Shown here piece by piece: positions 44,133-58,072 of a stretch of DNA of 64,000 nt. This DNA is from Desulfomicrobium escambiense DSM 10707 (GTDB taxonomy: Bacteria; Desulfobacterota; Desulfovibrionia; Desulfovibrionales; Desulfomicrobiaceae). The DNA lies in contig NZ_AUAR01000002.1 of the NCBI RefSeq assembly GCF_000428825.1, forward strand, positions 186,001 through 250,000, given 5' to 3'. The notes beneath the pieces were generated by a model that searched no databases, was not told the DNA's origin, and worked only from the letters and a program-made list of their open reading frames with translations. Positions within the stretch are counted from its first letter, which is position 1. Every line of letters begins with the position of its first letter. The translations under genes and the position numbers were made by a program.

Positions 44133-46370
44133 TCAACCGCACTTGGTGTACCCGCAGGAGGGGCAGACGAAACACCCTTCCTGGAACACGAGTTCCGTCG
44201 AACACTCCGGGCACTCGGTCTTGGACAGGGACTTGTCGAAGCTGCGGGGGGACGTCCCCTGCAGGTACTTGTTTTCCAGCACCCAGGACACGGCGTCTGG
44301 AATGGACAGGAGCATGCCTTTTTTCTGGAAGACGGGATGTTCCCCGCCGATCCCCTTGAGCTGCTTGACGATCTCGCGCACGTGCACGCCGGAGCGCAGG
44401 GCCAGTGACACCAAGCGGCCGATAGCTTCGGCCTTGGCCGTGATGGAACGCCCTGAACGGCCAATGGTGGTGAAGACCTCGAAGGGCTTGCCGTCGATCT
44501 CGTTCACGGTCAGGTACAGATCCCCCAATCCCGTGCGGACCTTCTGGGTGAAGCCGTAGACGATGTCCGGACGGTCCATGGGCCGCGTCTCTTCCTCGGC
44601 CTTCTTGCCGTCCTTGCCGCCCTCGCCCGTGCACAGGACCTGCACGCTCTTGCAGCCGTCGCGATACACGGTCACGCCCTTGCAGCCCTCCTCGTAGGCC
44701 ATCCAGTAGATTTTGTAGATGTCCTCCTGGGTGGCGGAGTTGGGCAGGTTGACGGTCTTGGACACGGCGTTGTCCGTGTGCTTCTGGAAGGCGGCCTGCA
44801 TCTTCAGGTGCCAAACAGGATCGATGTCCATGGCCGTGACGAAGACCTTGCGCAGGTCCTCGGGCAGAAATTCCATGCCGTGCACCGTGCCCTTCTCGAC
44901 GACCTCGGCCATGACCTTTTCGGAATGGCAGCCGGCGTCGTGCAGGGCCTGCACGAAAAAGGAGTTGGCCTCGGTCAGCTTCTCGCCGTCCATGACCTGG
45001 CGCACGAAGCACAGGGCGAAAAGCGGTTCCACGCCCGAGGAACACCCGGCGATGATGGACAGCGTGCCCGTGGGGGCGATGGTCGTGGTCGTGGCGTTGC
45101 GGTATGGCCCGAGGTTCTGGTCGCTGTAGACAGACGTCTCGAAGCCCGGGAAGGGGCCGCGCTCCTTGGCCAGCTGGGCAGAGGCGGACTTGGATTCGCG
45201 CTGCAGGAACTCCATGAGCTTCTCGGCCAGGACGATGCCCCGACGGCTGCTGTAGGGCAGGCGCAGCTGGTAGAGCATATCGGCCCAGCCCATGACGCCC
45301 AGGCCGATCTTGCGGTTGCGGCGCACGGTATGGGTGATGCGCTCCAGCGGGTACTCCGAGGCGTCGATGACGTTGTCCAAGAAGCGCACGCTCAGGTGGA
45401 TGACCTCGCGCAGCCTGTCCCAGTCGACCTCCTTGGCGCCGTCCCTGTCGACCACGAAGCGGGCCAGGTTGATGGAGCCCAGGTTGCAGGCCTCGTAGGG
45501 CAGCAGGGGCTGCTCGCCGCAGGGGTTGGTGCTCTCGATTTCGCCCTGGTCGGGGTTGGGGTTGTCGCGGTTGATGCGGTCGATGAAGATGATACCGGGG
45601 TCGCCGCTTTCCCAGGCCTTGCGCACCAGCAGCTCGAAGACCTCGCGGGCCTTGAGGCGCTCGATGACCTCGCCTGTGTGCGGGGCGACCAGGGCGTACT
45701 CTTCGTCCTTCTCCACGGCCTGCATGAATTTTTCCGTCAGGGCCACGGACAGGTTGAAGTTGTTGAGGTCGCCCTCGCGCTCCTTGGCCCGGATGAATTC
45801 GAGGATGTCGGGGTGGTCGACGCGCAGAATGCCCATGTTGGCCCCGCGCCGCGTGCCGCCCTGTTTGACCTGCTCAGTGGCCGTGTTGAAGATCTTCAGA
45901 AACGAGATGGGACCCGAGGCCACGCCGCCCGTGGAGCCGACGCGGCTGTCCTTGGGACGCAGGCGGCTGAAGGAAAACCCCGTGCCGCCGCCGGACTTGT
46001 GGATCAGGGCGGCGTGCTTCACCGCGTCGAAGATCTCGTCCATGGAGTCGCCGACCGGCAGGACGAAGCAGGCGGCCAGCTGTCCGAGATCCGTGCCTGC
46101 GTTCATGAGCGTGGGGGAATTGGGCAGGAAGTCGTAGTCGATCATGAGCCTGTAGAAGGTCCGGGCGAGGTCTTCGACCTTCCACGTGGAGTCCGGGTAG
46201 CCGGCTTCCATGGACGCGATGCTGGCGGCAACCCTCCAGAACATCTGCTTGGGGGTTTCGATGGGACTGCCGTCCAACCCCTTTTTCTGGTAGCGCTTCC
46301 GGAGCACCAGTTCGGAGTTGGCGTTGAGGGTCACTTCGGGCAGATCCGCCGGCATTTTCATAAGGTCCAT
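44133..46370 (-). CDS. nrdJ: Adenosylcobalamin-dependent ribonucleotide reductase (class II)
   Basis: 745 aa, ATG at 46370 with GTGAGG upstream. Reduces ribonucleotides using B12 radical chemistry and works without oxygen. Active-site motifs: GGTGFSFSRLRP, TEQVKQGGTRRGANMG and NPCGEQPLLPYEACNLGSIN. The C-terminal CPEC/CPSCGYTKCG cysteines form a Zn-ribbon or redox tail. An ATP-cone is absent. No cobalamin riboswitch or NrdR box pair was found in the 370-bp leader region. The histidine kinase pair lies directly downstream. Confidence 0.96.
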   Translation of the reverse strand: MDLMKMPADLPEVTLNANSELVLRKRYQKKGLDGSPIETPKQMFWRVAASIASMEAGYPDSTWKVEDLARTFYRLMIDYDFLPNSPTLMNAGTDLGQLAACFVLPVGDSMDEIFDAVKHAALIHKSGGGTGFSFSRLRPKDSRVGSTGGVASGPISFLKIFNTATEQVKQGGTRRGANMGILRVDHPDILEFIRAKEREGDLNNFNLSVALTEKFMQAVEKDEEYALVAPHTGEVIERLKAREVFELLVRKAWESGDPGIIFIDRINRDNPNPDQGEIESTNPCGEQPLLPYEACNLGSINLARFVVDRDGAKEVDWDRLREVIHLSVRFLDNVIDASEYPLERITHTVRRNRKIGLGVMGWADMLYQLRLPYSSRRGIVLAEKLMEFLQRESKSASAQLAKERGPFPGFETSVYSDQNLGPYRNATTTTIAPTGTLSIIAGCSSGVEPLFALCFVRQVMDGEKLTEANSFFVQALHDAGCHSEKVMAEVVEKGTVHGMEFLPEDLRKVFVTAMDIDPVWHLKMQAAFQKHTDNAVSKTVNLPNSATQEDIYKIYWMAYEEGCKGVTVYRDGCKSVQVLCTGEGGKDGKKAEEETRPMDRPDIVYGFTQKVRTGLGDLYLTVNEIDGKPFEVFTTIGRSGRSITAKAEAIGRLVSLALRSGVHVREIVKQLKGIGGEHPVFQKKGMLLSIPDAVSWVLENKYLQGTSPRSFDKSLSKTECPECSTELVFQEGCFVCPSCGYTKCG

Positions 46371-46473
46371 GGATACCTCACTTTCCTTGAAATTGTATGA
46401 GACATATTGAAATTATTGGCTCTTCTTGATCCGTGTCTCTGTACTGGAGATGGCCGAAGACTTCAACGGTGTG

Positions 46474-46499
46474 AAAAGGGGAACGGGTCGTCCTTCCCC
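46474..46499 (-). terminator. Hairpin with short T run, rfbA terminator or nrdJ leader attenuator
   Basis: Minus-strand stem GGGGAA/TTCCCC with 10-base loop, then TTTT. Located ~240 bp past rfbA and 104 bp before nrdJ. Confidence 0.5.
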
Positions 46500-46557
46500 T
46501 CTTTCTGCAAAAGAAATGAGAAAAGAATTTGTTGGTATTATTAGGCCGCTTCGAATG

Positions 46558-46572
46558 TGACTAATGTAGTCA
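46558..46572. promoter_or_regulatory. Candidate operator palindrome
   Basis: Perfect inverted repeat TGACTA-ATG-TAGTCA. A minus-strand TTGACT overlaps it and could be a -35 element, but no good -10 lies at 16-18 bp. The half-site spacing is not that of FNR/CRP sites. Confidence 0.4.
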
Positions 46573-46740
46573 ATATGCTGAAATAATGTTTATTTTTTAG
46601 GATGCCCAGCGGTTCCGAACAAAGCTTTCCGCGGTGTTCGACCCGGACTGCGTTCTAGCGAAGGAACATGGGAAAATGTTTGGAACAATCTTTTCCACAG
46701 GTGTTCCTTTACCAACTTAACTCATGAAATTATTGTTTTT

Positions 46741-47610
46741 TTATTCATCGTCAGCCAGTTCATCGAGGTAGCGGCCGTAGTCGTTCTTGGAGAACTTCGC
46801 GGCCAGCGCCTTCAGGTGTGCGCAATCGATGAAACCCTTCCTGAAGGCGATCTCCTCGATGCAGGCTATCTTGAAGCCCTGGCGTTCCTGGATGGCCTGC
46901 ACGAAGCTGCCGGCCTGCTGCAGGGATTCGTGGGTGCCGGCGTCGAGCCAGGCGTAACCGCGGCCGAGGAGTTCCACGTGTAGGGTGCCGCGGCGCAGGT
47001 ACTCGAGGTTGACGTCCGTGATTTCAAGCTCGCCGCGAGGCGAGGGACGCAGGGCCTTGGCGATGGCCACGACGTCGTTGTCGTAGAAATAGATGCCCGG
47101 CACGGCGAACTTCGATTTGGGCCTGGACGGCTTTTCCTCGATGCTGACAACCTTGCCGGCGTCGTCGAATTCCACCACTCCGTAGCGCTGGGGATCCCTG
47201 ACCGGGTAGCCGAAGACGATGCCGCCCTTGTCCAGTCCCACGCAGTTTTCGAGCACCACCGACAGCCCCTCGCCATGGATGATGTTGTCGCCAAGGACCA
47301 GGCAGACGCTGTCCAGGCCGATGAAGTCCTCGCCGAGGATGAAGGCCTGGGCCAGCCCGTCGGGCGAGGGCTGCACGATGTAGGTGAAGCGCACGCCGAT
47401 CTGGCTGCCGTCGCCGAGCAGGTCGCGGAAGCGCGGCAGGTCGTGGGGGGTGGAGATGATCAGGATATCCCTGATGCCCGCCAGCAGCAGGATGGAGAGG
47501 GGATAGTAGATCATGGGCTTGTCGTAGACGGGCAGGAGCTGCTTGCTGGTGCCCAGCGTCAGGGGGTAGAGTCGCGTGCCGGATCCTCCGGCCAGAATGA
47601 TTCCTTTCAT
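46741..47610 (-). CDS. rfbA: Glucose-1-phosphate thymidylyltransferase
   Basis: 289 aa. Makes dTDP-glucose, first step to dTDP-rhamnose. Nucleotidyl-binding motif [11 protein letters not shown] (~8-18), GDNIIHG and EEKPSRPKS are typical of RmlA. Length matches the ~290-residue bacterial enzyme. It stands alone; rfbB, rfbC and rfbD are not in the window. It is divergent from the MogA-like gene at 47755. Confidence 0.95.
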
Positions 47611-47754
47611 GGGTGTCCTTTCCTGTTGATTTCAGAAACAAACTATACGCGGGAAGAGTTCTGCGGACAAGTAGTCGCGGCTTTGCGGTAATGACAATGG
47701 CGCTTGCCTTTGGTAGCGATAGGCGTCGACTCTGAAAGAAACAAAGGGGATGGG

Positions 47755-48507
47755 ATGCGCATAACCTGGAAGAACCCTTGGCAGCCGGGACCCGTGATCA
47801 TCGCGGTGGGCATGGACCATGGCCTGGCTCACGGCCTTATCGATACGGCGCAGGAACTGCGCGCCGGGGATGTTTTGGATGATGGCGCATGCCGCGTGCA
47901 GGTGGAGAACAGGATCCGCCTTTGCAGCGCGGACGGCCTGTGCCTCGCTGCCTGGACCGGACAGGCCTCGGGAGCCGTCACGGCCGGCGAAAGGGACTGT
48001 GCCCTTTCCCGCAGCGGATTTTCCCTGGCCTGGATCACCCTGAGCGACAAGGGGTCGCGCGGCGAGCGTGTGGACGCGAGCGGACCGTGCATCCGCGATA
48101 CCGTCGCCGGGGCCATGGAGCTGAGCCTGGCCAGGGGGGTGATCATCCCGGACGAGCCGCTCATACTCAAGGCCGCCCTGGTCGACTGCTGCCTGAACCA
48201 CGGCTTTGACCTCGTCTTCACTACGGGCGGGACTGGAGTGGGGCCGCGCGACATCACGCCCGAGGCGACACTGCCCCTGCTGGACAAGAGGCTGCCGGGC
48301 TTCGAGCGGGCCATGACCCTGGCTTCCCTGGCCAAGACCCCGCACGCCGTCATTTCCCGGGCAGTGGCCGGGACCATGGGGAAATCCCTGGTGGTCAACC
48401 TGCCGGGCAGCCCCAAGGCCGTGCGGGAAAATCTGGCGGCCATCCTTCCGGCCCTCAGGCACACGGTGGAAAAACTCCAGGGAGACCCAAGGGATTGTGG
48501 ACAATAA
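47755..48507 (+). CDS. MogA/MoaB-like molybdopterin protein with N-terminal extension
   Basis: 250 aa, ATG at 47755 with an AAGGGGATGGG site. Residues ~85-250 form the MoCF fold, with TTGGTGVGPRDITPEAT as the molybdopterin-binding signature and LPGSPKAVREN. MogA adenylylates molybdopterin. The ~80 N-terminal residues (MRITWKNPWQPGPVIIAVGM onward) are not part of a standard 160-180-aa MogA and are not recognised. It starts a run of overlapping genes; its end overlaps the histidine kinase start by 11 bp. Confidence 0.8.
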   Translation: MRITWKNPWQPGPVIIAVGMDHGLAHGLIDTAQELRAGDVLDDGACRVQVENRIRLCSADGLCLAAWTGQASGAVTAGERDCALSRSGFSLAWITLSDKGSRGERVDASGPCIRDTVAGAMELSLARGVIIPDEPLILKAALVDCCLNHGFDLVFTTGGTGVGPRDITPEATLPLLDKRLPGFERAMTLASLAKTPHAVISRAVAGTMGKSLVVNLPGSPKAVRENLAAILPALRHTVEKLQGDPRDCGQ

Positions 48508-50140
48508 CCCCGAGCTGACACCCTCCGCCGAACTCAAAAGCTTTTTCGTCAAATTTTCCGTGATCCGTCTCGGAATCATGGTCTTTCTTCTCATGCTGGC
48601 CGTGTCCGAAATCCTGAACCTTTCGGATCGGGGTCTGCGGCTGGAAGTCGACAGGGATGTCCAGTACATTCTCTTCTTCGCCTCCGGGTTCGCTCTGAGC
48701 GTCGCCTATCTCCTGGCGTCGAAACGGTTCATCGGCTCCATGGCCCTGTTCCGCTTCCAGCTCACCGCGGACCTCTTCCTGACCACGTGGTGGATTGTGC
48801 TGACCGGCGGGTCGTTCAGCGCCTTCATGATCCTCTACATCCTGTGCCTCTTCTTTTACGGCCGCATCGTCGGTTTCCAGACGATCGTCTTCTCCTCCCT
48901 CGTCGTCTGGGTCCTTTTGTTCCTCATTTCGTGCGTGCAGTTCTATTTTCCCGGGCTGTGGGGGCAGATGCACATCCGCGGTTCCGATCTGGCCTACAAC
49001 TACAGCCTGTTCACCCTGGCCCTCATTCTGGTCGCCTCCCTGGTCAAACTGAGCCGCACGGCGGAAAACAGGCTTCTGCAGCGTCTCATCGAACAGGAAG
49101 GGGCCCTGCGCAGGTCCGAGGAAATCAAGTACCGCGTTTTCGACTGGCTCGACGCGGGCCTGCTGGTGGTCGACGACGACCGGCGCGTTACCAGCATCAA
49201 CCAGCGGGCCCTGGACTGGCTTCCTGGTTACGACCGCAGCCGGGCCATCGGCGCGCTGCTCGATTCCCTCTATCCGGAGTTCGTTCCCTTCTGGGGGGAT
49301 CGCCGCAAATCCACCCGCCGCCACATGGTCGTGAGCACGGACCGCGACCTTGTCTTTGGCTTCAAGATGACGGAGCTGCCTGAAAACCAGGGCTGGATGA
49401 TCCTCTTCTCGGACATCACCGAAGTGCAGAAGATGGAACGCCAGATCAAGGAAATGGAGAAGATGGCCAGCGTGGGCGAGCTGGCCGCCGGCCTGGCCCA
49501 CGAGATGAAGAACCCTCTGGCCGGCATCAAGACGAGTCTGCAGCTTCTGCTGTCCGACGATCTGGAGAAGGACTTCTCGGAGCGCCTCTCAAGGGTCATC
49601 CTGCGCGATATCGACCGCCTCGACTTCCTGCTCAAGGATTTTCTCATCTTCGCCCGCCCGCAGGCGCCAAGCCCAGATCACCTTGTTCTGGGCGAAGAGA
49701 TCGAGCATGTGCTCATGCCCCTGCGCCTGCAGCATCCCCGGGTCAGGATCCGCGTCGATGTCGGTGACGCTTCCTGCCCCTTCGACCGCAACCAGTTTCA
49801 TCAGATCCTCGTCAACCTGCTGGTCAACGCCATGCAGGCCCTGGAAGATGCGGACGACCCCGAGATCGTCATCTCCGCGTCCCGCGAAAACGCAAAATTG
49901 GTCCTTTCCATTTCCGACAATGGCCCGGGGCTGAGCCAAGGCGTCGAAGAGAAGTGCTTCGACCCCTTCGTCACCACCAAACCCGTCGGATCGGGGCTGG
50001 GCCTGGCCATCGCACGCCGCCTCGCGGCCCAGAACGGGACCTTCATCGACCTGCAGAACAACCCTTCCGGAGGGGCCAGGGCCGTCCTGGTCCAGGATGA
50101 ATCATTTTTCCGCCCCCGAGCGGACCAGGATGCACCGTGA
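48497..50140 (+). CDS. Membrane PAS sensor histidine kinase (PilS/NtrB-like)
   Basis: 547 aa, GTG at 48497. About six N-terminal membrane helices (residues ~20-185) without a large periplasmic loop, a PAS region (~210-310, including DAGLLVVDDDRRVTSINQRA), HisKA with His335 (AAGLAHEMKNPLAGI) and HATPase with DNGPGL and GSGLGLAIARRL. The layout resembles PilS and other NtrB-like kinases that partner sigma-54 activators. No response regulator is next to it; the sigma-54 regulator at 14.8-16.1 kb is one possibility in the window. Its end overlaps the next gene (GTGA). Confidence 0.9.
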   Translation: MDNNPELTPSAELKSFFVKFSVIRLGIMVFLLMLAVSEILNLSDRGLRLEVDRDVQYILFFASGFALSVAYLLASKRFIGSMALFRFQLTADLFLTTWWIVLTGGSFSAFMILYILCLFFYGRIVGFQTIVFSSLVVWVLLFLISCVQFYFPGLWGQMHIRGSDLAYNYSLFTLALILVASLVKLSRTAENRLLQRLIEQEGALRRSEEIKYRVFDWLDAGLLVVDDDRRVTSINQRALDWLPGYDRSRAIGALLDSLYPEFVPFWGDRRKSTRRHMVVSTDRDLVFGFKMTELPENQGWMILFSDITEVQKMERQIKEMEKMASVGELAAGLAHEMKNPLAGIKTSLQLLLSDDLEKDFSERLSRVILRDIDRLDFLLKDFLIFARPQAPSPDHLVLGEEIEHVLMPLRLQHPRVRIRVDVGDASCPFDRNQFHQILVNLLVNAMQALEDADDPEIVISASRENAKLVLSISDNGPGLSQGVEEKCFDPFVTTKPVGSGLGLAIARRLAAQNGTFIDLQNNPSGGARAVLVQDESFFRPRADQDAP

Positions 50141-53100
50141 ACACCTACATCGCAGACCTCCACCTCCATTCCCGGTTTTCGAGGGCCACGAGCAAGAACC
50201 TGACGCCGAGAAACCTGGTGGCCTGGGCCGCGGTCAAGGGCATCGACGTGCTGGCCACGGGAGACTTCACGCATCCCGGCTGGATGGAGATGATCCAGTC
50301 CCAGCTTGAACCGGGAGAGGACGGTCTGTTCCGACTGCGCGAGGCCAAGGGCCTGGAGGCGGAGCTGCCCTGGTTTTCCGGCAATCTCGACGCCTCGGGC
50401 ATCCGCTTCGCGCTGTGCACGGAGATCAGCTCCATCTACAAGCGCGGCGGCAAGGTGCGCAAAGTCCACAACCTGGTCTTCATGCCCGGCCTGGACGCGG
50501 CCCTGAGGTTCAACACTCGTTTGGCCCAGGTCGGCAACCTGGCCTCGGATGGGCGGCCCATCCTTGGGCTTGATTCGCGCGACCTCCTGGAGATGGTCCT
50601 GGAGACGGACCCGCAGGCCTATCTCATCCCGGCCCACATCTGGACGCCCTGGTTTTCCGTCTTCGGTTCCAAGTCCGGGTTCGACCGCATCGAGGACTGC
50701 TTCGGCGATTTGAGCGGCGAGATTTTCGCCCTGGAGACGGGCCTGTCGTCGGACCCCGAGATGAATTGGCTGTGGAGCGCCCTGGACCGTTTCTCCCTGG
50801 TCTCCAACTCCGATGCCCATTCCGGGGAAAAGCTCGGCCGCGAGGGCAACATCTTTTCCGGTGAGATGTCCTTTGCCGACATGCGCCGCGCCCTGCGCCG
50901 CGAGGAGGGGAGCGCGCGCTTCGAAGGCACCCTCGAATTCTATCCCGAGGAGGGGAAATACCACCTCGACGGCCACCGCAAGTGCGGGGTCATGCTGGAG
51001 CCCGCGGAGTCCGCTCGGCACAAGGGCCTGTGTCCGGTCTGCGGCAAGCCTCTGACCATCGGCGTGCTGAACCGGGTCTTTGCCCTGGCGGACCGGGCCG
51101 TGCCCGTGCGGCCGGCCCACCAGCCGTCCTTCACGTCCCTGGTTCCCCTGCCGGAAATCCTCTCGGAGATCCTCGGGGCCGGGCCCGCGACCAAGAAGGT
51201 CCAGGGCATGTACAACCAGCTCATCCGGGACTTCGGCTCGGAGTTCGCCATTCTGCGTTCAGTCCCCGTGGAGGATCTGCAGCGGTCCTCGAAGATGCTG
51301 GCCGAGGCCCTGCGCCGGATGCGCCATGGGGCTGTGTACCGCCACAGCGGGTATGACGGCGAGTTCGGGCGCATATCCATGTTTTCCCCCCAGGAACTGC
51401 TCGAATTCAGGCACGGCCGCATGCTGTCCATGGCCGCTCCGGTCGCGGAGGCCGAGGAGGTCGGGCAGCGCTGGCGCAGACCTCAGGGCCAGGCGGCCCC
51501 GAAGCGCGAGGAACCCCTGCAGGAACCGAACGAGATGCAGCAAGCCGCCATCCTGGCCGGGCCGGGTCCTGTCCTTGTCCTGGCCGGGCCAGGCACGGGC
51601 AAGACCCAGACCCTCATGGGCCGGGTGCGGCACCTGCTGGACCAGGGAGCGGACCCGTCGCGCATATTGGTCCTGACCTTCACCCGCAAGGCCGCGCGGG
51701 AGCTCAAGGACCGCCTGCAGCGCGCCTGCCCGGCCGGGGCGGCCCTGCCCAAGGCCGACACCCTGCACGCCTTGGCCCTCGAATACTGGGCCCGCGTCAT
51801 GGGCGAGGCGCCCATCCTGCTCTCGGAGGAATCGAGTCGGCGCCTTTTCGCCGCCGCCAACCCCGAGCTGCAGGGCAAGGCCCTGAAGACGGCCTGGAAC
51901 GAGCAGTCCCTGGCCCGGGAGAATGGCGTGCGCATCCCCGGCGAACAGACCCGCCGCTACCTGGACCACAAGGCGCGCTTCAACCTGGTGGACTACACCG
52001 ATCTGCTCGAATTCTGGTTCGAACACCTCCAACTCGGGCACCATGTCCCGGACTGGGACCACGTGCTGGTGGACGAGGTGCAGGACCTCTCGCCCCTGCA
52101 GATCGCCCTGGTCACGGGCCTGAGCGGAAAGAGCGGCCGGGGTTTTTTCGCCATCGGCGACCCCAACCAGGCCATCTACGGCTTCCGCGGCGCCGTGCGC
52201 GACATCGAGACGCGGTTGCGCGGCATCTGGCCCGACATGCGCAAGGTCAGGCTGGTGCGCAACTACCGCTCGTCCCAGCAGATCCTCGACCTGGCCGCGA
52301 GCCTCTTCCCCGAACGGGAGTCCCTCGTGGCGCAGCTCGGGCACGTTGCGTCCATGACCCTGTTCGAGGCCCAGAGCGCGGACCAGGAAGCGGGCTGGAT
52401 CGCCTCGCGCATGCGCGAGCTCCTGGGCGGCACGGGCCACTGGCAGGCCGACGCTCACGGCGGGGCCGCGCTCTCGCCGGGCGACATCGCCGTGCTCGTG
52501 CGCCTCAAGGCCCTTGTCCCGCCCATCGTCAAGGCTCTGGAAGGCGCGGGCATCCCTGTGTCCGTGCCCGAGCAGGAGCCGTTCTTCACGGACCAGCGGG
52601 TGGAGGTGGTCATGGGCATCGCCGGCAACGTGCTGGGCATGCCCGAGGCCGTGCAGCAGGAATTGCCGCCCTGTCCCGAGGCCATCGTCGAGAAGGGGCC
52701 CCTGGCCATGGCCGTGCATCTTTCGCTGACGCCCCCCTTCGACGAGCTGTTCTGGAAGAGCCGGGCCTTTCTTGATCTGGTCAAGGCCCACCAGAGCTTC
52801 GGCGGCTGGCGGGGCCTTCTGAACATGGTCCGCCTGGAGACGGAGCTGTGCGCCATCAGGTCCAGGGCCCAGAAGGTCCAGGTCATGACCCTGCACGGCG
52901 CCAAGGGCCTGGAGTTCGAGGCGGTCTTCCTGCCGGGCCTGGAGGAGGGCATCCTGCCCTTTGCCGGCATGGACATGCTGCTGGGCAAGACCGTGGAGGA
53001 CGGGGTCGATCTCGACGAGGAGCGCCGCCTGTTCTACGTCGGCCTGACCAGAGCCCGGTCGTCGCTTTTCATGAGCCACTGCGCCAGCCGCCGCATGTTC

Positions 53101-53229
53101 GGCAAGACCTTCAAGCTCGGCCTGTCCTCCCTGGTGCGCCGCCTGCCCCAGGACATGCTGCGCAAGAGCGCCATCCGCCGCCACGTCAGGAAGAACGAGC
53201 GGCAGCTGAGCCTCTTTCCGGCCCCATGA
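50137..53229 (+). CDS. EndoQ-like PHP nuclease fused to UvrD-type SF1 helicase
   Basis: 1030 aa, GTG at 50137 overlapping the kinase TGA. Residues ~1-310 match the EndoQ/TIGR00375 PHP family: His9/His11 (DLHLHS), Asp43/His46 (TGDFTH), Glu96, His111, His167 (AHIWTPW), Asp226/His228 (SNSDAH), and a zinc-finger-like part with Cys283, Cys299, Cys302. EndoQ cuts DNA 5' of deaminated bases. Residues ~455-1020 are a superfamily 1 helicase: Walker A AGPGTGKT (483-490), DEVQD (646-650), NQAIYGFRG, VMTLHGAKGLEFE and VGLTRARSSL. The region 310-450 continues EndoQ-like sequence (VGTKKVQ-type ATKKVQGMYN). Fusion is confirmed by one uninterrupted frame. Confidence 0.85.
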   Translation: MNTYIADLHLHSRFSRATSKNLTPRNLVAWAAVKGIDVLATGDFTHPGWMEMIQSQLEPGEDGLFRLREAKGLEAELPWFSGNLDASGIRFALCTEISSIYKRGGKVRKVHNLVFMPGLDAALRFNTRLAQVGNLASDGRPILGLDSRDLLEMVLETDPQAYLIPAHIWTPWFSVFGSKSGFDRIEDCFGDLSGEIFALETGLSSDPEMNWLWSALDRFSLVSNSDAHSGEKLGREGNIFSGEMSFADMRRALRREEGSARFEGTLEFYPEEGKYHLDGHRKCGVMLEPAESARHKGLCPVCGKPLTIGVLNRVFALADRAVPVRPAHQPSFTSLVPLPEILSEILGAGPATKKVQGMYNQLIRDFGSEFAILRSVPVEDLQRSSKMLAEALRRMRHGAVYRHSGYDGEFGRISMFSPQELLEFRHGRMLSMAAPVAEAEEVGQRWRRPQGQAAPKREEPLQEPNEMQQAAILAGPGPVLVLAGPGTGKTQTLMGRVRHLLDQGADPSRILVLTFTRKAARELKDRLQRACPAGAALPKADTLHALALEYWARVMGEAPILLSEESSRRLFAAANPELQGKALKTAWNEQSLARENGVRIPGEQTRRYLDHKARFNLVDYTDLLEFWFEHLQLGHHVPDWDHVLVDEVQDLSPLQIALVTGLSGKSGRGFFAIGDPNQAIYGFRGAVRDIETRLRGIWPDMRKVRLVRNYRSSQQILDLAASLFPERESLVAQLGHVASMTLFEAQSADQEAGWIASRMRELLGGTGHWQADAHGGAALSPGDIAVLVRLKALVPPIVKALEGAGIPVSVPEQEPFFTDQRVEVVMGIAGNVLGMPEAVQQELPPCPEAIVEKGPLAMAVHLSLTPPFDELFWKSRAFLDLVKAHQSFGGWRGLLNMVRLETELCAIRSRAQKVQVMTLHGAKGLEFEAVFLPGLEEGILPFAGMDMLLGKTVEDGVDLDEERRLFYVGLTRARSSLFMSHCASRRMFGKTFKLGLSSLVRRLPQDMLRKSAIRRHVRKNERQLSLFPAP

Positions 53230-53936
53230 GCTTCCGTCTGGCCGCACCGTCATGCGTCATCCCCGACCGGGTCGGCCCCAACTGCCTCGCTCTGGCGCCC
53301 CTGGTGCGTGAGGTCGCGCTCATGCTCCTCGAAACGCGGGGCTGTCAGGATTACGACGAGCGCGACCTGCCCCCGGACCTGCCCGACCTGGGCTTGTCCT
53401 ACCATGCCCATCTGCCCGTGGACCTGCCCTGGGAATCCGGCCCGGACGCGGTCTGCGGGGCTCTGGAGGCCATCGAGCAAAAAATTGCCTTTCTGCATCC
53501 CTGCGGGTATGTGCTCCATCCTCCGCCTCCCGGGGAGCTGACGCGGTTGGTGCGCCGGCGGCCCGATCTGGCGTCGTCCCTTCGCATGGAAAACAGCAGA
53601 GACAGCGACCTGAGGGACATCTGGCCGGAAATCGAGAGCCTGGGCCTGGGCGTGTGCCTGGATGTGGGGCATCTGGTCAGCTATGGACAGGAACGCATTT
53701 TGCAACTCCCCGGTTTCCTTGAGCGCGTGCGCATGTTGCACGTCTACGGCGGGGAGTCGGGCCGCGGTCACGCCGCTCTCGAAGACCTGCCCGATCCGGG
53801 GCTGCTGCGCGCCATCCTGGGCTCGGTGCGAGGGGACTGCGTGCTGGTGGCGGAGCTTTTCCGGCTGGATGAGCTGACGCGGTCCTTGGGACTGCTGCGT
53901 TCATGGCTCGACGCATGGGGGATGGATCATGATTGA
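53226..53936 (+). CDS. cbiR: CbiR-like cobamide-remodelling hydrolase
   Basis: 236 aa, ATG at 53226 overlapping the helicase stop (ATGA). TIM-barrel of the AP-endonuclease-2 superfamily, with ligand motifs YHAHLPVDL, YVLHPPPP, RMENSRDSDL, LDVGHL and LHVYGG. CbiR of Akkermansia removes the lower ligand of imported cobamides so the corrinoid can be rebuilt. The call relies on the adjacent cobU gene (8-bp overlap) and on remembered family resemblance; a generic sugar isomerase would fit the motifs but not the context. Confidence 0.65.
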   Translation: MSFRLAAPSCVIPDRVGPNCLALAPLVREVALMLLETRGCQDYDERDLPPDLPDLGLSYHAHLPVDLPWESGPDAVCGALEAIEQKIAFLHPCGYVLHPPPPGELTRLVRRRPDLASSLRMENSRDSDLRDIWPEIESLGLGVCLDVGHLVSYGQERILQLPGFLERVRMLHVYGGESGRGHAALEDLPDPGLLRAILGSVRGDCVLVAELFRLDELTRSLGLLRSWLDAWGMDHD

Positions 53937-54438
53937 GCTGGTGCTGGGCGGCAACAAGTCCGGCAAGTCCGATTTCGGCCTGGAACTCCTGCGGGCCGCC
54001 CCGAAGCCCTGGACCCTCGTGGCGACGGGCAAGTCCCGGGATCTGGCCTTCCGGGAGCAGATCCGCGCCCATCGCCTGGACCGCGAGCCGGACATCGCGG
54101 TGCGCGAGGCCGACACGGACCTGGCCGCCGCGCTGCGCGGGCTCTCGACCCTGGGCGGCGGGATCCTGGTGGACAGCCTCGACTTCTGGATGTTCGCCCT
54201 CTCGAGTCTGGACGCCGCGTCCGGGAAAGTCCGGCGTGAGGAACTGCTGGCGGAAATTTCTTCCTGGCGCGGGGGAAAACTGATTCTCGTCTCCACGGAG
54301 ATGGGCCTTGGTCCCCTGGCCTACGACGGCACCGTGCGGGCATTCGCGCGGGATCTCGGGCAGCTCAACCGCGAAATTGCCAGCATCAGTGCAAGTGTGT
54401 ATCTGGTGGTTGCCGGTCTGGCCCAAAAACTGAAGTGA
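53929..54438 (+). CDS. cobU: Adenosylcobinamide kinase/guanylyltransferase
   Basis: 169 aa. Phosphorylates adenosylcobinamide and transfers GMP during nucleotide loop assembly. P-loop GGNKSGKS (~residues 6-13, Asn where Arg is usual), and VDSLDFWMFAL in place of the common VDCLTLWLSNL. The C-terminus (LGPLAYDGTVRAFARDLGQLNREI) resembles the CobU tail. Overlaps cbiR by 8 bp. Divergence from typical CobU leaves some doubt about the guanylyltransferase step. Confidence 0.8.
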   Translation: MIELVLGGNKSGKSDFGLELLRAAPKPWTLVATGKSRDLAFREQIRAHRLDREPDIAVREADTDLAAALRGLSTLGGGILVDSLDFWMFALSSLDAASGKVRREELLAEISSWRGGKLILVSTEMGLGPLAYDGTVRAFARDLGQLNREIASISASVYLVVAGLAQKLK

Positions 54439-54445
54439 GAAGGTC

Positions 54446-55471
54446 ATGGCATATTTCAGAAAGCTGGATCCGAAGCTCGCCAAGCTTCAGGAATTGCTGA
54501 ACAAGAACGAGCGTTGGCTGATCCTCATCAATGCCGACCCCGACGCCCTGGCCTCGGCTTTGGCCCTGAAGCGCATCCTGGCCGGCCGCGTCGAGCAGGT
54601 GGCCATCGCCCATGTCAACGACATCACCAGGCCCGACAACCTGGCCATGATCCGGCTCCTGCGCATCGCCACCAAGAAGCTGACGCCTCCCCTGGCCGCC
54701 CAGTACGACCGCTTCGCCCTGGTGGACTCCCAGCCCCATCACCACCCCGATTTCGCAAACATCAAGTTTTCCGTGGTCATCGACCACCACCCCAAGGTGG
54801 CCGGCACGCCCGTCGATGCCGACTACGTCGAGATCGTGTCCGAGTACGGCTCCAACTCGACTATCATGACCGAATATCTCTACAACCTGGACCTGCGGCC
54901 CGGAAAGCTCCTGGCCACGGCCCTGCTCTACGGCATCAAGACCGACACCCAGAGCTTTGAGCGCGAGTTCCACGACAACGACATGAAGGCCTTCCGCTAC
55001 CTGTCGAAGTTCTACAGCAGGCCGCTGCTGCACAAGATCATCCGCTCGGAGTTCCGCCTGGAGTGGCTCAAGTACTTCACCCAGGCCTTCCGCAAGATGC
55101 GGCTCATGGGCAACACCATCACCATTTTCATGGGCAAGGTCGACTCGGCCGACATCCTGGTCATCCTGGCCGACTTCTTCCTGCGCGTGCACGGCCTGTC
55201 CACGACCATGGTCAGCGGCATCAGCGAGGACAAGCTCGTGATAGTGTTCCGCGGTGACGGCCTGCGCCGCGACATGGGCAAGTTCGCCAAGCGCCTGTTC
55301 GGCGACGTGGGCTCGGCCGGCGGGCACAAGTCCATGGCCCGGGCCGAGATCCCCATGGAGAAGCTGGGCTGCCAGCACGCCAGCCAGTTCATCTGGGAGC
55401 GCCTGCATAGCAGTTCCGAGACAAAGAAAAAGAAAAAGGATCCGGAGAACGGCCAAAACGGCTCCGCCTGA
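54446..55471 (+). CDS. DHH-family phosphoesterase
   Basis: 341 aa, ATG at 54446, 7 bp after cobU. DHH domain with Asp31/Asp33 (INADPDALASALA; the usual His before this motif is Asn) and Asp113-His114-His115 (VVIDHHPK), then a DHHA1 region with GSAGGHKSMARAE. NrnA-type members degrade oligoribonucleotides or pAp, others are exonucleases or c-di-AMP hydrolases. It ends in a Lys-rich tail. It lies 30 bp before polA in the same run of genes. Confidence 0.85.
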   Translation: MAYFRKLDPKLAKLQELLNKNERWLILINADPDALASALALKRILAGRVEQVAIAHVNDITRPDNLAMIRLLRIATKKLTPPLAAQYDRFALVDSQPHHHPDFANIKFSVVIDHHPKVAGTPVDADYVEIVSEYGSNSTIMTEYLYNLDLRPGKLLATALLYGIKTDTQSFEREFHDNDMKAFRYLSKFYSRPLLHKIIRSEFRLEWLKYFTQAFRKMRLMGNTITIFMGKVDSADILVILADFFLRVHGLSTTMVSGISEDKLVIVFRGDGLRRDMGKFAKRLFGDVGSAGGHKSMARAEIPMEKLGCQHASQFIWERLHSSSETKKKKKDPENGQNGSA

Positions 55472-55501: not shown

Positions 55502-58072
55502 ATGACTTTGCAGACACGGCTCGGCCTGAAGACCGAGCCCCTTTTTTTGATCGACGGCCACGCCTTCATCTACCGCGGCTTCTACGCATACCCTGATTTC
55601 AAGCGCTCGGACGGGTTCCCGACCAGCGCCATGTACATCATCTTCAAGCTCGTGCTGAAGCTCTTGCGCGAGGAGAAGCCCACCCATCTGGTCTTCGTCA
55701 CCGACGGGCGAGGGCCCACCTTCCGCAATGAACTCTACCCCGACTACAAGGCCCACCGTCCGCGCATGCCCGAAGGCCTGGCCGCACAGCTGGAGCCCCT
55801 CAGGGACGGCCTGCGCCTGCTGGGCGTCCCTGTGCTTGAGGCCCAGGGCTGCGAGGCCGACGACTGCATCGCCTCCCTGGCGGGCCGCTTCAAGGACCGG
55901 AGAAGCATCGTCATCGTCGGAGCGGACAAGGACCTGCGCCAGTGCCTGGACGAGGATGTGGTCATGTGGGACCCGGCCCAGGGCAAGGAGAAGATCATCA
56001 CCCTCGGCGACTTCACGCAGGAGACGGGCCTCACCCCCGGCCAGTGGGCCGACTTCCAGGCCATGATCGGCGATTCGGCCGACAACATCCCGGGCATTCC
56101 CAAGGTCGGTCCCAAGACGGCCATGGGCTTCCTGCGTCGCTTCCCGAGCCTGAATCTGCTGAAGGACAATTTCGACCGCCTCACGGCCAAGGAGCAGACT
56201 CTGCTCGGGCCGCACATGGATCAGGCCTTCGTTTACCGGCAGCTGACGACGTTGCGTACGGACGTGTGCACGGAATACGGCCTGGACGACCTGGCCGTAG
56301 GGCGGGTGGACGACGCGGCCCTGGAGTTTTTCCGGGAATACGAGTTCCGTTCCCTTCTGTCCGAGTTCCAGTCGCTGGCGGGAACCAAGGCCAAGCCTGC
56401 GGCAGCGGGCGGCGGTTTGTCCGGGGCCCCGGAGCCCGAGGCCCCGTCCCGGACGCCGCGGGTCGAACCCCGCGTGGTTTCGGAGCTGGGACCCATGGCC
56501 GGCCGCGAGGTGGGCCTCTTCGGAGAGTCCGGCCGCTGGATCCTGGGCACGGACGTCAGCGAGCTGCTTTTCATGGGGCGGGACGCGGAGCTCGGCCGGG
56601 CCCTGACCGGGGCGCGCGTGCACGTGACGTCGTACAAGACCCTGCTGGAGCTGGGCCGCCCCGACCTCTCGGGCTGCGCCGAAGTCTTCGACATTGAGCT
56701 GGCCGCCTACCTGCTGAGCCCCGAGGAGCGGAACTATTCCCTTGAGCGCATTCGTGACGGCCTGGGCGAGGAGATCGAGGTCCACCCCGAGAATCTGGGG
56801 CAGACCGTGCTGGCCGTGGGCCGGGTGCTGCGTTCACGCCTGGCCGGGTCGGAACTGCTCGGGCTCCTCAAGGGGCTGGAGCAGCCCCTGACCGAGGTCC
56901 TGGTGCGCATGCAACGTCGCGGTATCCGCATCGACCAGGCCAAGTTCCGCGATTTCCTGGACATGGTGCAGGCCGAGCTGGACCGGCTGACCCAGAGGAT
57001 CCACGACCAGGCCGGCGGGGAGTTCAACATCCGCTCCAGCCAGCAGCTGGCCGACGTCCTGTTTTCGAAGCTGGGCCTCAAAAGCAAACAGAAGACCCCG
57101 GGCGGCGCCCAGTCCACCTCCAGCGCCGTGCTGGATGGCCTGGTCGGGCAGCACGCAATCGTCGACGACATCCAGGAGTACCGGATGTACGAGAAGCTGC
57201 GCTCGACCTACCTCGAGCCCCTGCCGCAGCTGGCCGACGCCGAGGGGCGCATCCACACGACCTTCAACCAGCTGGCCACGGCCACGGGCCGACTGTCGAG
57301 CAGCAACCCCAATTTGCAGAACATTCCCATCCGCGGCAGCCTCGGTCCGCGCATGCGGTCCTGCTTCGTGGCCGCGCCGGGCAAGGCCCTCGTGGCCGCG
57401 GACTACTCCCAGATCGAGCTCAGGGTCCTGGCGCACATGTCCGGCGACCCGACGCTCCTGGACGCCTTCGCCGCGGGTGACGACATCCATGCCCGCACGG
57501 CCAAGATTCTGTTCGACAAGGCCGAGGTCACGCCCGACGAGCGGCGCAAGGCCAAGACCATCAACTTCGGCCTGCTGTACGGCATGGGGCCGCAGAAACT
57601 CGGCCGCGAGCTCGGCATAAGCCTCAAGGAGGCCAAGGAGTTCATCGAGGTCTACTTCAGCAAGCTGTCCCGCGTGCGGCAGTTCTACGAGGAGATCGAG
57701 GAGGGCGCCCGGTCCGTCGGGTACGTGACCACCCTGGCCGGGCGGCGGCGCATGCTGCCCGACATCAATTCCCGCAACGTCAACCTGGCCCAGCAGGCCC
57801 GGCGCATGGCCATCAACACCGTGGTCCAGGGCTCGGCGGCCGACATCATCAAAAAGGCCATGCTCGAAGTGGACAAGAGCAGGGTTATTGGCGAATTAGG
57901 CGCGAGCCTGATCCTGCAGATCCACGACGAACTCCTGTTGGAGGTCCCGCAGGACGCAGCCCGTGAGGTCGGTCAGGCCGTGGCTGCCGTCATGAGCTCG
58001 GTCTACGACCTGTCCGTGCCGCTGGCCGTGGACTGGGGCGTCGGCGCGGACTGGAGCGAGGCGCATAAGTAA
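55502..58072 (+). CDS. polA: DNA polymerase I, no proofreading active site seen
   Basis: 856 aa, ATG at 55502 with GGAGGG. N-terminal 5'-3' exonuclease (residues ~12-300: FLIDGHAFIYRG, CEADDCIASL, MIGDSADNIPGIPKVGPKTA). Middle domain ~310-480 lacks the FDTET, Asp and YxxxD residues of the 3'-5' exonuclease. Polymerase motifs follow: TATGRLSSSNPNLQNIP, DYSQIELRVLAH, RRKAKTINFGLLYGMG and QIHDELLLEV. Fills gaps after repair and removes Okazaki primers. Confidence 0.96.
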   Translation: MTLQTRLGLKTEPLFLIDGHAFIYRGFYAYPDFKRSDGFPTSAMYIIFKLVLKLLREEKPTHLVFVTDGRGPTFRNELYPDYKAHRPRMPEGLAAQLEPLRDGLRLLGVPVLEAQGCEADDCIASLAGRFKDRRSIVIVGADKDLRQCLDEDVVMWDPAQGKEKIITLGDFTQETGLTPGQWADFQAMIGDSADNIPGIPKVGPKTAMGFLRRFPSLNLLKDNFDRLTAKEQTLLGPHMDQAFVYRQLTTLRTDVCTEYGLDDLAVGRVDDAALEFFREYEFRSLLSEFQSLAGTKAKPAAAGGGLSGAPEPEAPSRTPRVEPRVVSELGPMAGREVGLFGESGRWILGTDVSELLFMGRDAELGRALTGARVHVTSYKTLLELGRPDLSGCAEVFDIELAAYLLSPEERNYSLERIRDGLGEEIEVHPENLGQTVLAVGRVLRSRLAGSELLGLLKGLEQPLTEVLVRMQRRGIRIDQAKFRDFLDMVQAELDRLTQRIHDQAGGEFNIRSSQQLADVLFSKLGLKSKQKTPGGAQSTSSAVLDGLVGQHAIVDDIQEYRMYEKLRSTYLEPLPQLADAEGRIHTTFNQLATATGRLSSSNPNLQNIPIRGSLGPRMRSCFVAAPGKALVAADYSQIELRVLAHMSGDPTLLDAFAAGDDIHARTAKILFDKAEVTPDERRKAKTINFGLLYGMGPQKLGRELGISLKEAKEFIEVYFSKLSRVRQFYEEIEEGARSVGYVTTLAGRRRMLPDINSRNVNLAQQARRMAINTVVQGSAADIIKKAMLEVDKSRVIGELGASLILQIHDELLLEVPQDAAREVGQAVAAVMSSVYDLSVPLAVDWGVGADWSEAHK

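Follow-up and report, generated by a model that had tools for sequence, protein, structure and literature searches.

Endonuclease Q (EndoQ) is described, in the excerpts of the literature consulted here, as a mainly archaeal enzyme with few bacterial copies. For the Thermococcales, the steps proposed to follow EndoQ are displacement of the strand by PolB and cleavage of the flap by Fen1, with PCNA as the scaffold, according to the consulted portion of a report that also describes the binding of archaeal EndoQ to PCNA and a clamp motif in bacterial homologues (PMC4858679). Desulfovibrio homologues are mentioned in passages of three papers (PMC4357722, PMC4858679, PMC8438529), and none of these passages links one to a helicase; Figure 9A of PMC4357722 draws a Desulfovibrio homologue and may show its extra length. 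Here we describe a gene of Desulfomicrobium escambiense DSM 10707 in which a complete EndoQ continues, in a single frame, into a UvrD-type helicase. The gene lies in a stretch of 64,000 nucleotides (positions 186,001 to 250,000 of contig NZ_AUAR01000002.1, assembly GCF_000428825.1), hereafter the window, within which all positions are counted. The Desulfovibrio homologues and the bacterial EndoQ clamp motif are already in print; the helicase fusion seems to be new to the literature searched, since no paper on it stands among those that the searches listed. Sequence databases may carry the labels of both domains without comment.

The gene is one unbroken plus-strand frame that runs from a GTG start to a TGA stop (Table 1), and its closest named relative, from a metagenome-assembled genome (MAG) of Desulfomicrobium, a genus within the Desulfovibrionales, is 96% identical at the protein level. 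An artefact or a frameshift joining the two parts was ruled out, as the identical fusion is seen again in many genomes, and so was chance joining, because the same architecture recurs in 17 of the 20 named loci and in all 50 further loci that were read. Two of the 17 end at a contig end inside the helicase; of the other three named loci, an in-frame stop divides one, and in two the contig ends ahead of the helicase. The scan behind the named loci reaches close relatives only, and the 50 others were taken for their best score within the window's own order, the Desulfovibrionales (30 loci; "the order" in what follows), or for their long frames outside it (20 loci), such that neither the best-scoring set (L023-L082) nor the set chosen by frame length and family (L083-L122) is random. 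The architecture of EndoQ and UvrD-type helicase in one chain is thus confirmed.

Residues 6-424 align to PfuEndoQ 5zb8 (phmmer against PDB sequences, E 1.9e-51), and among the 34 PDB sequences matched the N-terminal matches are EndoQ entries only; other PHP families, such as polymerase PHP and histidinol phosphatase, contributed no such chain at E 0.001. For the predicted model of the protein, which has a mean predicted local distance difference test score (pLDDT) of 82.7, the best VIA-align row is PfuEndoQ 5zb8_B (Z 45.5, root-mean-square deviation 2.5, 392/398 residues). Foldseek places UvrD chains on top and PfuEndoQ ninth (E 2.0e-35, TM by target 0.90), an order to be expected because the protein has two domains. 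The PHP metal set is complete when aligned to PfuEndoQ (D7, H9, H11, D43, E96, H111, H167, D226 and H228 of the fusion). In an alignment of 68 fused and 53 stand-alone rows, many of them close relatives, Pfu D6, H8, H10, D42, E76, H84, H139 and H195 are kept in every row, and D193 in 67 of the fused and all of the stand-alone rows; two pieces of the window's own gene (L001 and L002) were left out of this alignment and of the EndoQ tree. Equally invariant in both groups are the equivalents of Pfu H139, G169 and S171 (H167, G202 and S204), which shape the base pocket and are named as excluding T and A in the part of PMC8307549 consulted. Zinc-ribbon ligands, assigned by sequence and including a CPVCG of the CPxCG type, follow the PHP domain. 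The first of them, Cys in PfuEndoQ, is His in 67/68 fused rows, and loss of the zinc site in the fusions was rejected, as the same His occurs in 51/53 stand-alone bacterial rows.

An earlier, sequence-only reading of the window had claimed the single 1030-residue frame, the complete PHP metal set and a full helicase motif series, all of which hold. It had also let its claim depend on the PHP part clustering with EndoQ and had named a comparison with the EndoQ crystal fold as a check, and both bear it out, the EndoQ part of the window sitting among stand-alone EndoQs in the tree. It was right about the EndoQ identity but too narrow in confining the signatures to residues 1-310, since the whole enzyme takes up residues 1-424. 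Judged by its residues and its predicted fold, then, the N-terminal part is a complete EndoQ, with metal set, pocket and zinc ligands present, and it would be expected to incise 5' of deoxyuridine, deoxyinosine, deoxyxanthosine or apurinic/apyrimidinic (AP) sites. The module could instead have shifted to other lesions (AP sites, oxidised bases or others), with deaminated bases as a minor substrate. AP sites and some oxidised pyrimidines count among the substrates of PfuEndoQ according to the same part of PMC8307549, and the His at the first zinc position could be taken in the same sense; however, the T- and A-excluding residues are invariant in the fused rows and most of the order has no match to UDG or EndoV (see below), such that we consider this shift very improbable.

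The second half, residues ~458-1014, carries the superfamily 1 (SF1) series of Walker A, DExQD, GDPxQ and motifs IV-VI, and its key residues are invariant columns over the 33 fusions of alignment A1. This alignment comprises the window and 32 of the 34 complete fusions, leaving out L018, a near copy of L019, and the outlier L095, and including L017, which is perhaps chimeric. PF00580 and PF13361 match over their cut-offs, and VIA-align gives Z 41.6 to the UvrD of D. radiodurans over 522 residues; the best UvrD, Rep and PcrA chains lie at Z 38-42 and the remaining chains lower. From UvrD anatomy, the stretch between R711 and H920 presumably holds the 2B insertion. Its span is 209 amino acids in the window, 206-217 in 14 of 15 order rows, 302 in L019 and 132 to 298 in rows outside the order, and in the window it may represent a reduced 2B regulatory domain. 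By family, the helicase half would be expected to unwind DNA in the 3'-5' direction with ATP; the genome of the window encodes further UvrD-type helicases. Two Desulfovibrio fusions, L018 and L019, measure 1295 residues from stop to stop, and the linker stretch of L019 has 164 residues as against 60.

The chain ends in ERQLSLFPAP, within a segment (residues 1015-1030) of pLDDT below 50, and QLSLF is the classical beta-clamp motif of bacteria. In a strict form, Q[LM].LF within the last 15 amino acids, the motif is present in 24 of the 34 complete fusions and, among complete EndoQ frames that are stand-alone or split, in 28 of 51. The background, 870 other complete frames of at least 200 residues from the same loci, taken from stop to stop such that some are no genes, yielded three, all of them partner helicases (of L007, L107 and L110). 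A looser clamp pattern raises the counts to 30/34, 45/51 and 15/870, respectively. Stand-alone EndoQs carry the motif at their own C-terminus and fusions only at the helicase end, no strict motif being found at frame positions 380-560, around the junction, in any of 67 fused frames. At three loci (L107, L109 and L110) EndoQ and helicase are separate neighbouring genes; there, each of the three EndoQs has the strict motif at its end, as do two of the helicases, the third having QRSLF. Taken with the empty junction of the fusions, this means two clamp-type tails in neighbouring genes versus a single one at the far end of the fusion. Given its motif of the QL[SD]LF type and its predicted disorder, the tail would be a likely ligand of the beta clamp.

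We propose, and consider probable, that the fusion is a chromosomal base-damage repair enzyme that is tethered to the clamp, makes its nick on the 5' side of a deaminated base and opens the way for DNA polymerase I by unwinding the lesion strand. The tail would hold the protein on the beta clamp, and the EndoQ module would flip out the damaged position (uracil, hypoxanthine, xanthine or an AP site) and nick on its 5' side, such that a clean 3'-OH is left upstream and the downstream strand begins, at its 5' end, with the lesion. With the 3'-5' polarity expected from its family, the helicase would enter at the nick on the undamaged template strand, travel downstream and strip away the 5' end that carries the lesion. 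Such a nick together with a 3'-5' helicase on the intact template strand would result in displacement of the lesion-bearing strand, and in this respect the nicking and unwinding that the sequence-only reading had proposed is plausible and fits the expected polarity of both activities. DNA polymerase I would then fill in, its 5' nuclease would trim the flap and ligase would seal. By analogy with the Thermococcales, the helicase, the clamp tail and Pol I could fill here the parts of PolB, Fen1 and PCNA.

The helicase might also act before the nick, as the motor of a damage scanner that moves along single-stranded or forked DNA at the replication fork, clears or opens it and hands lesions over to the EndoQ module. 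The clamp-type motif would bring the protein to forks, the helicase is similar to UvrD, to Rep and to PcrA, and archaeal EndoQ is active on single-stranded as well as duplex DNA (PMC8307549, in the part consulted). However, no fused helicase is found on EndoQ in archaea or in the stand-alone bacterial forms, and a 3'-5' polarity starting from a nick on the 5' side would suit displacement of the lesion strand; we therefore regard a scanner as unlikely and keep to an enzyme that nicks first and unwinds afterwards.

In even samples drawn of order and phylum genomes, EndoQ was matched in 241 of 247 order genomes and in 51/51 genera, and 146 of the 150 listed matches from these 241 genomes lie in open frames of at least 980 residues. 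The fusion thus appears fixed in the Desulfovibrionales, a point that the sequence-only reading had put up for checking, while its statement that EndoQ occurs in a few bacteria was too narrow, for EndoQ was matched in 255 of 395 phylum genomes. Phylum frames are mostly of 410-480 residues (stand-alone) or of 960-1174, with at least 33 in the latter class among the matches listed, and the 20 long frames that were read were all fusions; fused and stand-alone EndoQ are thus both present in the phylum outside the order. Two named loci depart from the common arrangement. In one (L007:2627-5734), EndoQ and helicase are parted by one in-frame stop in the linker region. The other, a MAG contig of Desulfomicrobium UBA11180 (L017:1-10297), is 93% identical to positions 44137-50987 of the window until the match ends inside EndoQ, at about residue 284, and it carries a helicase of another lineage behind the break, either as a recombined gene or as an assembly chimera.

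All 68 fused rows of the EndoQ tree, which was built by a quick method, fall in one starred group of 81 (Shimodaira-Hasegawa-like approximate likelihood ratio test 97), together with 13 split, fragment or helicase-less rows. The label "fused" needs 7 changes on this tree, 6 of them forced by starred branches, and part of these changes comes from the labelling itself, L020 and L021 being fragments at contig ends and L007 being split by a stop. The helicase tree is compatible with a single origin of the fused form. In it, the three helicases of the adjacent-gene loci make up a clade that adjoins nine resident paralogues (support 94) and has these on one side and most fused forms on the other. 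Repeated capture of a resident UvrD is not supported, as 9 of the 11 paralogues of UvrD type group in a single clade, separate from the fused helicases; the long-branched L152 and L153 attach among fused rows and are uninformative, and a twelfth paralogue, L157, had no usable frame. One fusion followed by losses or splits is the simplest reading; several fusion events are possible.

Repair of deaminated bases that starts with UDG or EndoV seems scarce in the order. In samples that were likewise even, a match to the UDG superfamily (PF03167) was not found in 178 of 247 order genomes, 175 of which have EndoQ, and was present in 352 of 378 phylum genomes outside the order. EndoV (PF04493) was matched in 3 of 120 order genomes and not found in the other 117, with no match in the 101 most complete, and it was matched in 177/378 outside the order. 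The genome of the window has a dUTPase and gave no match to EndoV (PF04493). The fusion may thus be the main tool of most members of the order for deaminated bases, and direct incision would, in most Desulfovibrionales, stand in for repair started by UDG and EndoV. The idea that EndoQ replaces UDG as a rule throughout the phylum was rejected, given the 352 genomes with UDG outside the order and the presence of EndoQ in only 5 of the 26 without it there (the 26 and the 175/178 come from a by-eye comparison of listings).

Table 1. Position and basis of assignment of the fusion gene, its parts and its neighbours in the window.
Feature	Position	Strand	Basis
EndoQ-UvrD fusion gene, 1030 aa (amino acids), GTG start	50137..53229	+	intact frame; homologues of same architecture
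EndoQ module, aa 1-424: PHP domain, zinc ribbon H280/C283/C299/C302, C-terminal domain	50137..51408	+	phmmer, fold match, residue map
Flexible linker, ~aa 425-457	51409..51507	+	pLDDT <50 at aa 428-460; length variable among fusions
SF1A helicase of UvrD/PcrA/Rep type, aa 458-1014	51508..53178	+	PF00580 and PF13361 over cut-off; fold match; invariant motif residues
QLSLF beta-clamp-type motif, aa 1023-1027, in predicted disordered tail	53203..53217	+	sequence; motif counts; pLDDT
PAS/HisKA/HATPase sensor kinase, upstream	48497..50140	+	stop overlaps fusion start by 4 bases (GTGA)
CbiR, cobamide remodelling phosphodiesterase	53226..53936	+	NF041277 167.9 bits, cut-off 105; start overlaps fusion stop (ATGA)
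DHH-family phosphoesterase	54446..55471	+	PF01368
DNA polymerase I (PolA)	55502..58072	+	NF004397 866.9 bits, cut-off 720

Because of the stop/start overlaps on both of its sides, the fusion looks translationally coupled to the upstream sensor kinase, which adjoins it in only part of the order loci, and to CbiR downstream. Gene order continues with CobU, the DHH phosphoesterase and DNA polymerase I. Of the 20 named loci, 14 order loci extend downstream for 4.3 kb or more, the other six (L006, L015, L016, L017, L020 and L021) being too short to be counted; the DHH phosphoesterase lies downstream in all 14 and PolA in nine. CbiR and CobU (53226-54438) are placed between the fusion and the DHH-PolA pair in the window; at L009, L010 and L013 neither was found, and DHH and PolA come after the fusion.

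These neighbours bear on another proposal, namely that the fusion guards against foreign or uracil-rich DNA, as in phage restriction, and is no repair enzyme. For Bacillus EndoQ such a role has been put forward (a suggestion cited in the consulted part of PMC8307549), and the helicase half scores against the GajB models of Gabija; the best 25 of the 48 PADLOC hits for the window, however, have every best stretch in that half. The presence of EndoQ in nearly all order genomes, beside housekeeping genes, is unlike the patchy occurrence of defence genes. The EndoQ part is unmatched in 72,556 plasmid and 50,697 phage records, which also disposed of a mobile or phage origin; no plasmid or phage place covers 80% of the full fusion, the matches listed being to the helicase half only. 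A scan of viral contigs with two peptides from A1 returned 15 stretches and no relative. We hold a defence role to be quite improbable and return to base-damage repair.

The wider reading is that most Desulfovibrionales gave up repair started by UDG and EndoV and rely on a single clamp-tethered enzyme that nicks and unwinds, an order-wide pathway born by the fusion of two neighbouring clamp-binding genes and the dropping of the inner clamp motif. We put it forward tentatively and lean slightly against it, as its chances are lowered by helicase-less rows within the fused clade and by glycosylases outside the search. No helicase was found near L103, L104, L105, L106, L108 and L111, or in the ~1.4 kb flank of L078, all of which belong to that clade, such that room must be left for losses, splits or repeated fusion. 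The search for deamination repair covered the UDG superfamily and EndoV, leaving other glycosylases and nucleases for deaminated bases unsearched. Several further points weigh against this proposal or the repair mechanism at its core. UDG is matched in 69 order genomes (63 over the cut-off), and the genome of the window itself encodes a 226-residue protein (L136, G000:C2:121300-122400) with a weak UDG-superfamily match (E 4.8e-5) just below the Pfam cut-off. Of the 238 genomes with EndoQ outside the order, 233 carry a match to UDG as well, so EndoQ is no general replacement for UDG. As EndoQ is near universal in the order, its association with UDG loss cannot be tested there, and two order genomes (G182 and G042, 99% and 94% complete) match neither. 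Weak matches like that of L136 recur across its genus.

Other points of this kind concern the protein and its surroundings. The predicted template modelling score (pTM) of 0.51 leaves the relative placement of the EndoQ and helicase domains unsettled in the model. The fusion scores 171.5 bits against a TIGR00375 cut-off of 326.6, one that is reached by none of the 247 order and 395 phylum genomes and by two of the three named control genomes that match the family; for the PcrA, Rep and UvrD equivalogs of NCBIfam the best score is 203.6 bits against cut-offs of at least 911.2. The strict clamp motif is missing in 10 of the 34 complete fusions. PolA is not downstream in 5 of the 14 order loci, and neither it nor DHH was found in the flanks (up to 6 kb, several shorter) of 20 fused loci outside the order. 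Finally, PolA alone can displace strands, and the helicase is for that reason not strictly needed.

EndoQ thus emerges as nearly a core gene in a bacterial order, where it is joined to a helicase and retained in genomes that mostly gave no match to UDG or EndoV. The clamp-type motif at the C-terminus, the lack of UDG and EndoV matches across most of the order and the loci with EndoQ and helicase as adjacent genes are observations that go beyond the first reading of the sequence. How the Desulfovibrionales handle the deamination of cytosine and adenine becomes a question directly testable in laboratory strains, and the order would offer a bacterial case of a direct-incision pathway whose follow-up to the nick may be encoded within the one chain.

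Compared with known systems, the fusion contains the whole of Endonuclease Q as known from PfuEndoQ, TkoEndoQ, M. acetivorans and Bacillus and shares with it a C-terminal motif of clamp type; it differs in the helicase of ~570 amino acids behind it, in a zinc ribbon of H-C-C-C instead of C-C-C-C ligands and in the position of the clamp motif, at the helicase end. The stand-alone bacterial EndoQs of TIGR00375 share its catalytic residues and have representatives in the same phylum, but they lack a helicase, and the fusion scores below their family cut-off. With the SF1A helicases UvrD, PcrA and Rep it shares the motifs and the overall fold; it is set apart by scores far below their equivalog cut-offs, by the R711-H920 stretch (209 residues in the window, more than 260 in several other fusions) and by a short tail with a clamp-type motif after motif VI. 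Helicases of the GajB type of Gabija work with a nuclease, and they and other nuclease-helicase defence pairs resemble the fusion in having a UvrD-like helicase, whereas the fusion has another nuclease, a single chain and a near-universal chromosomal distribution in its order.

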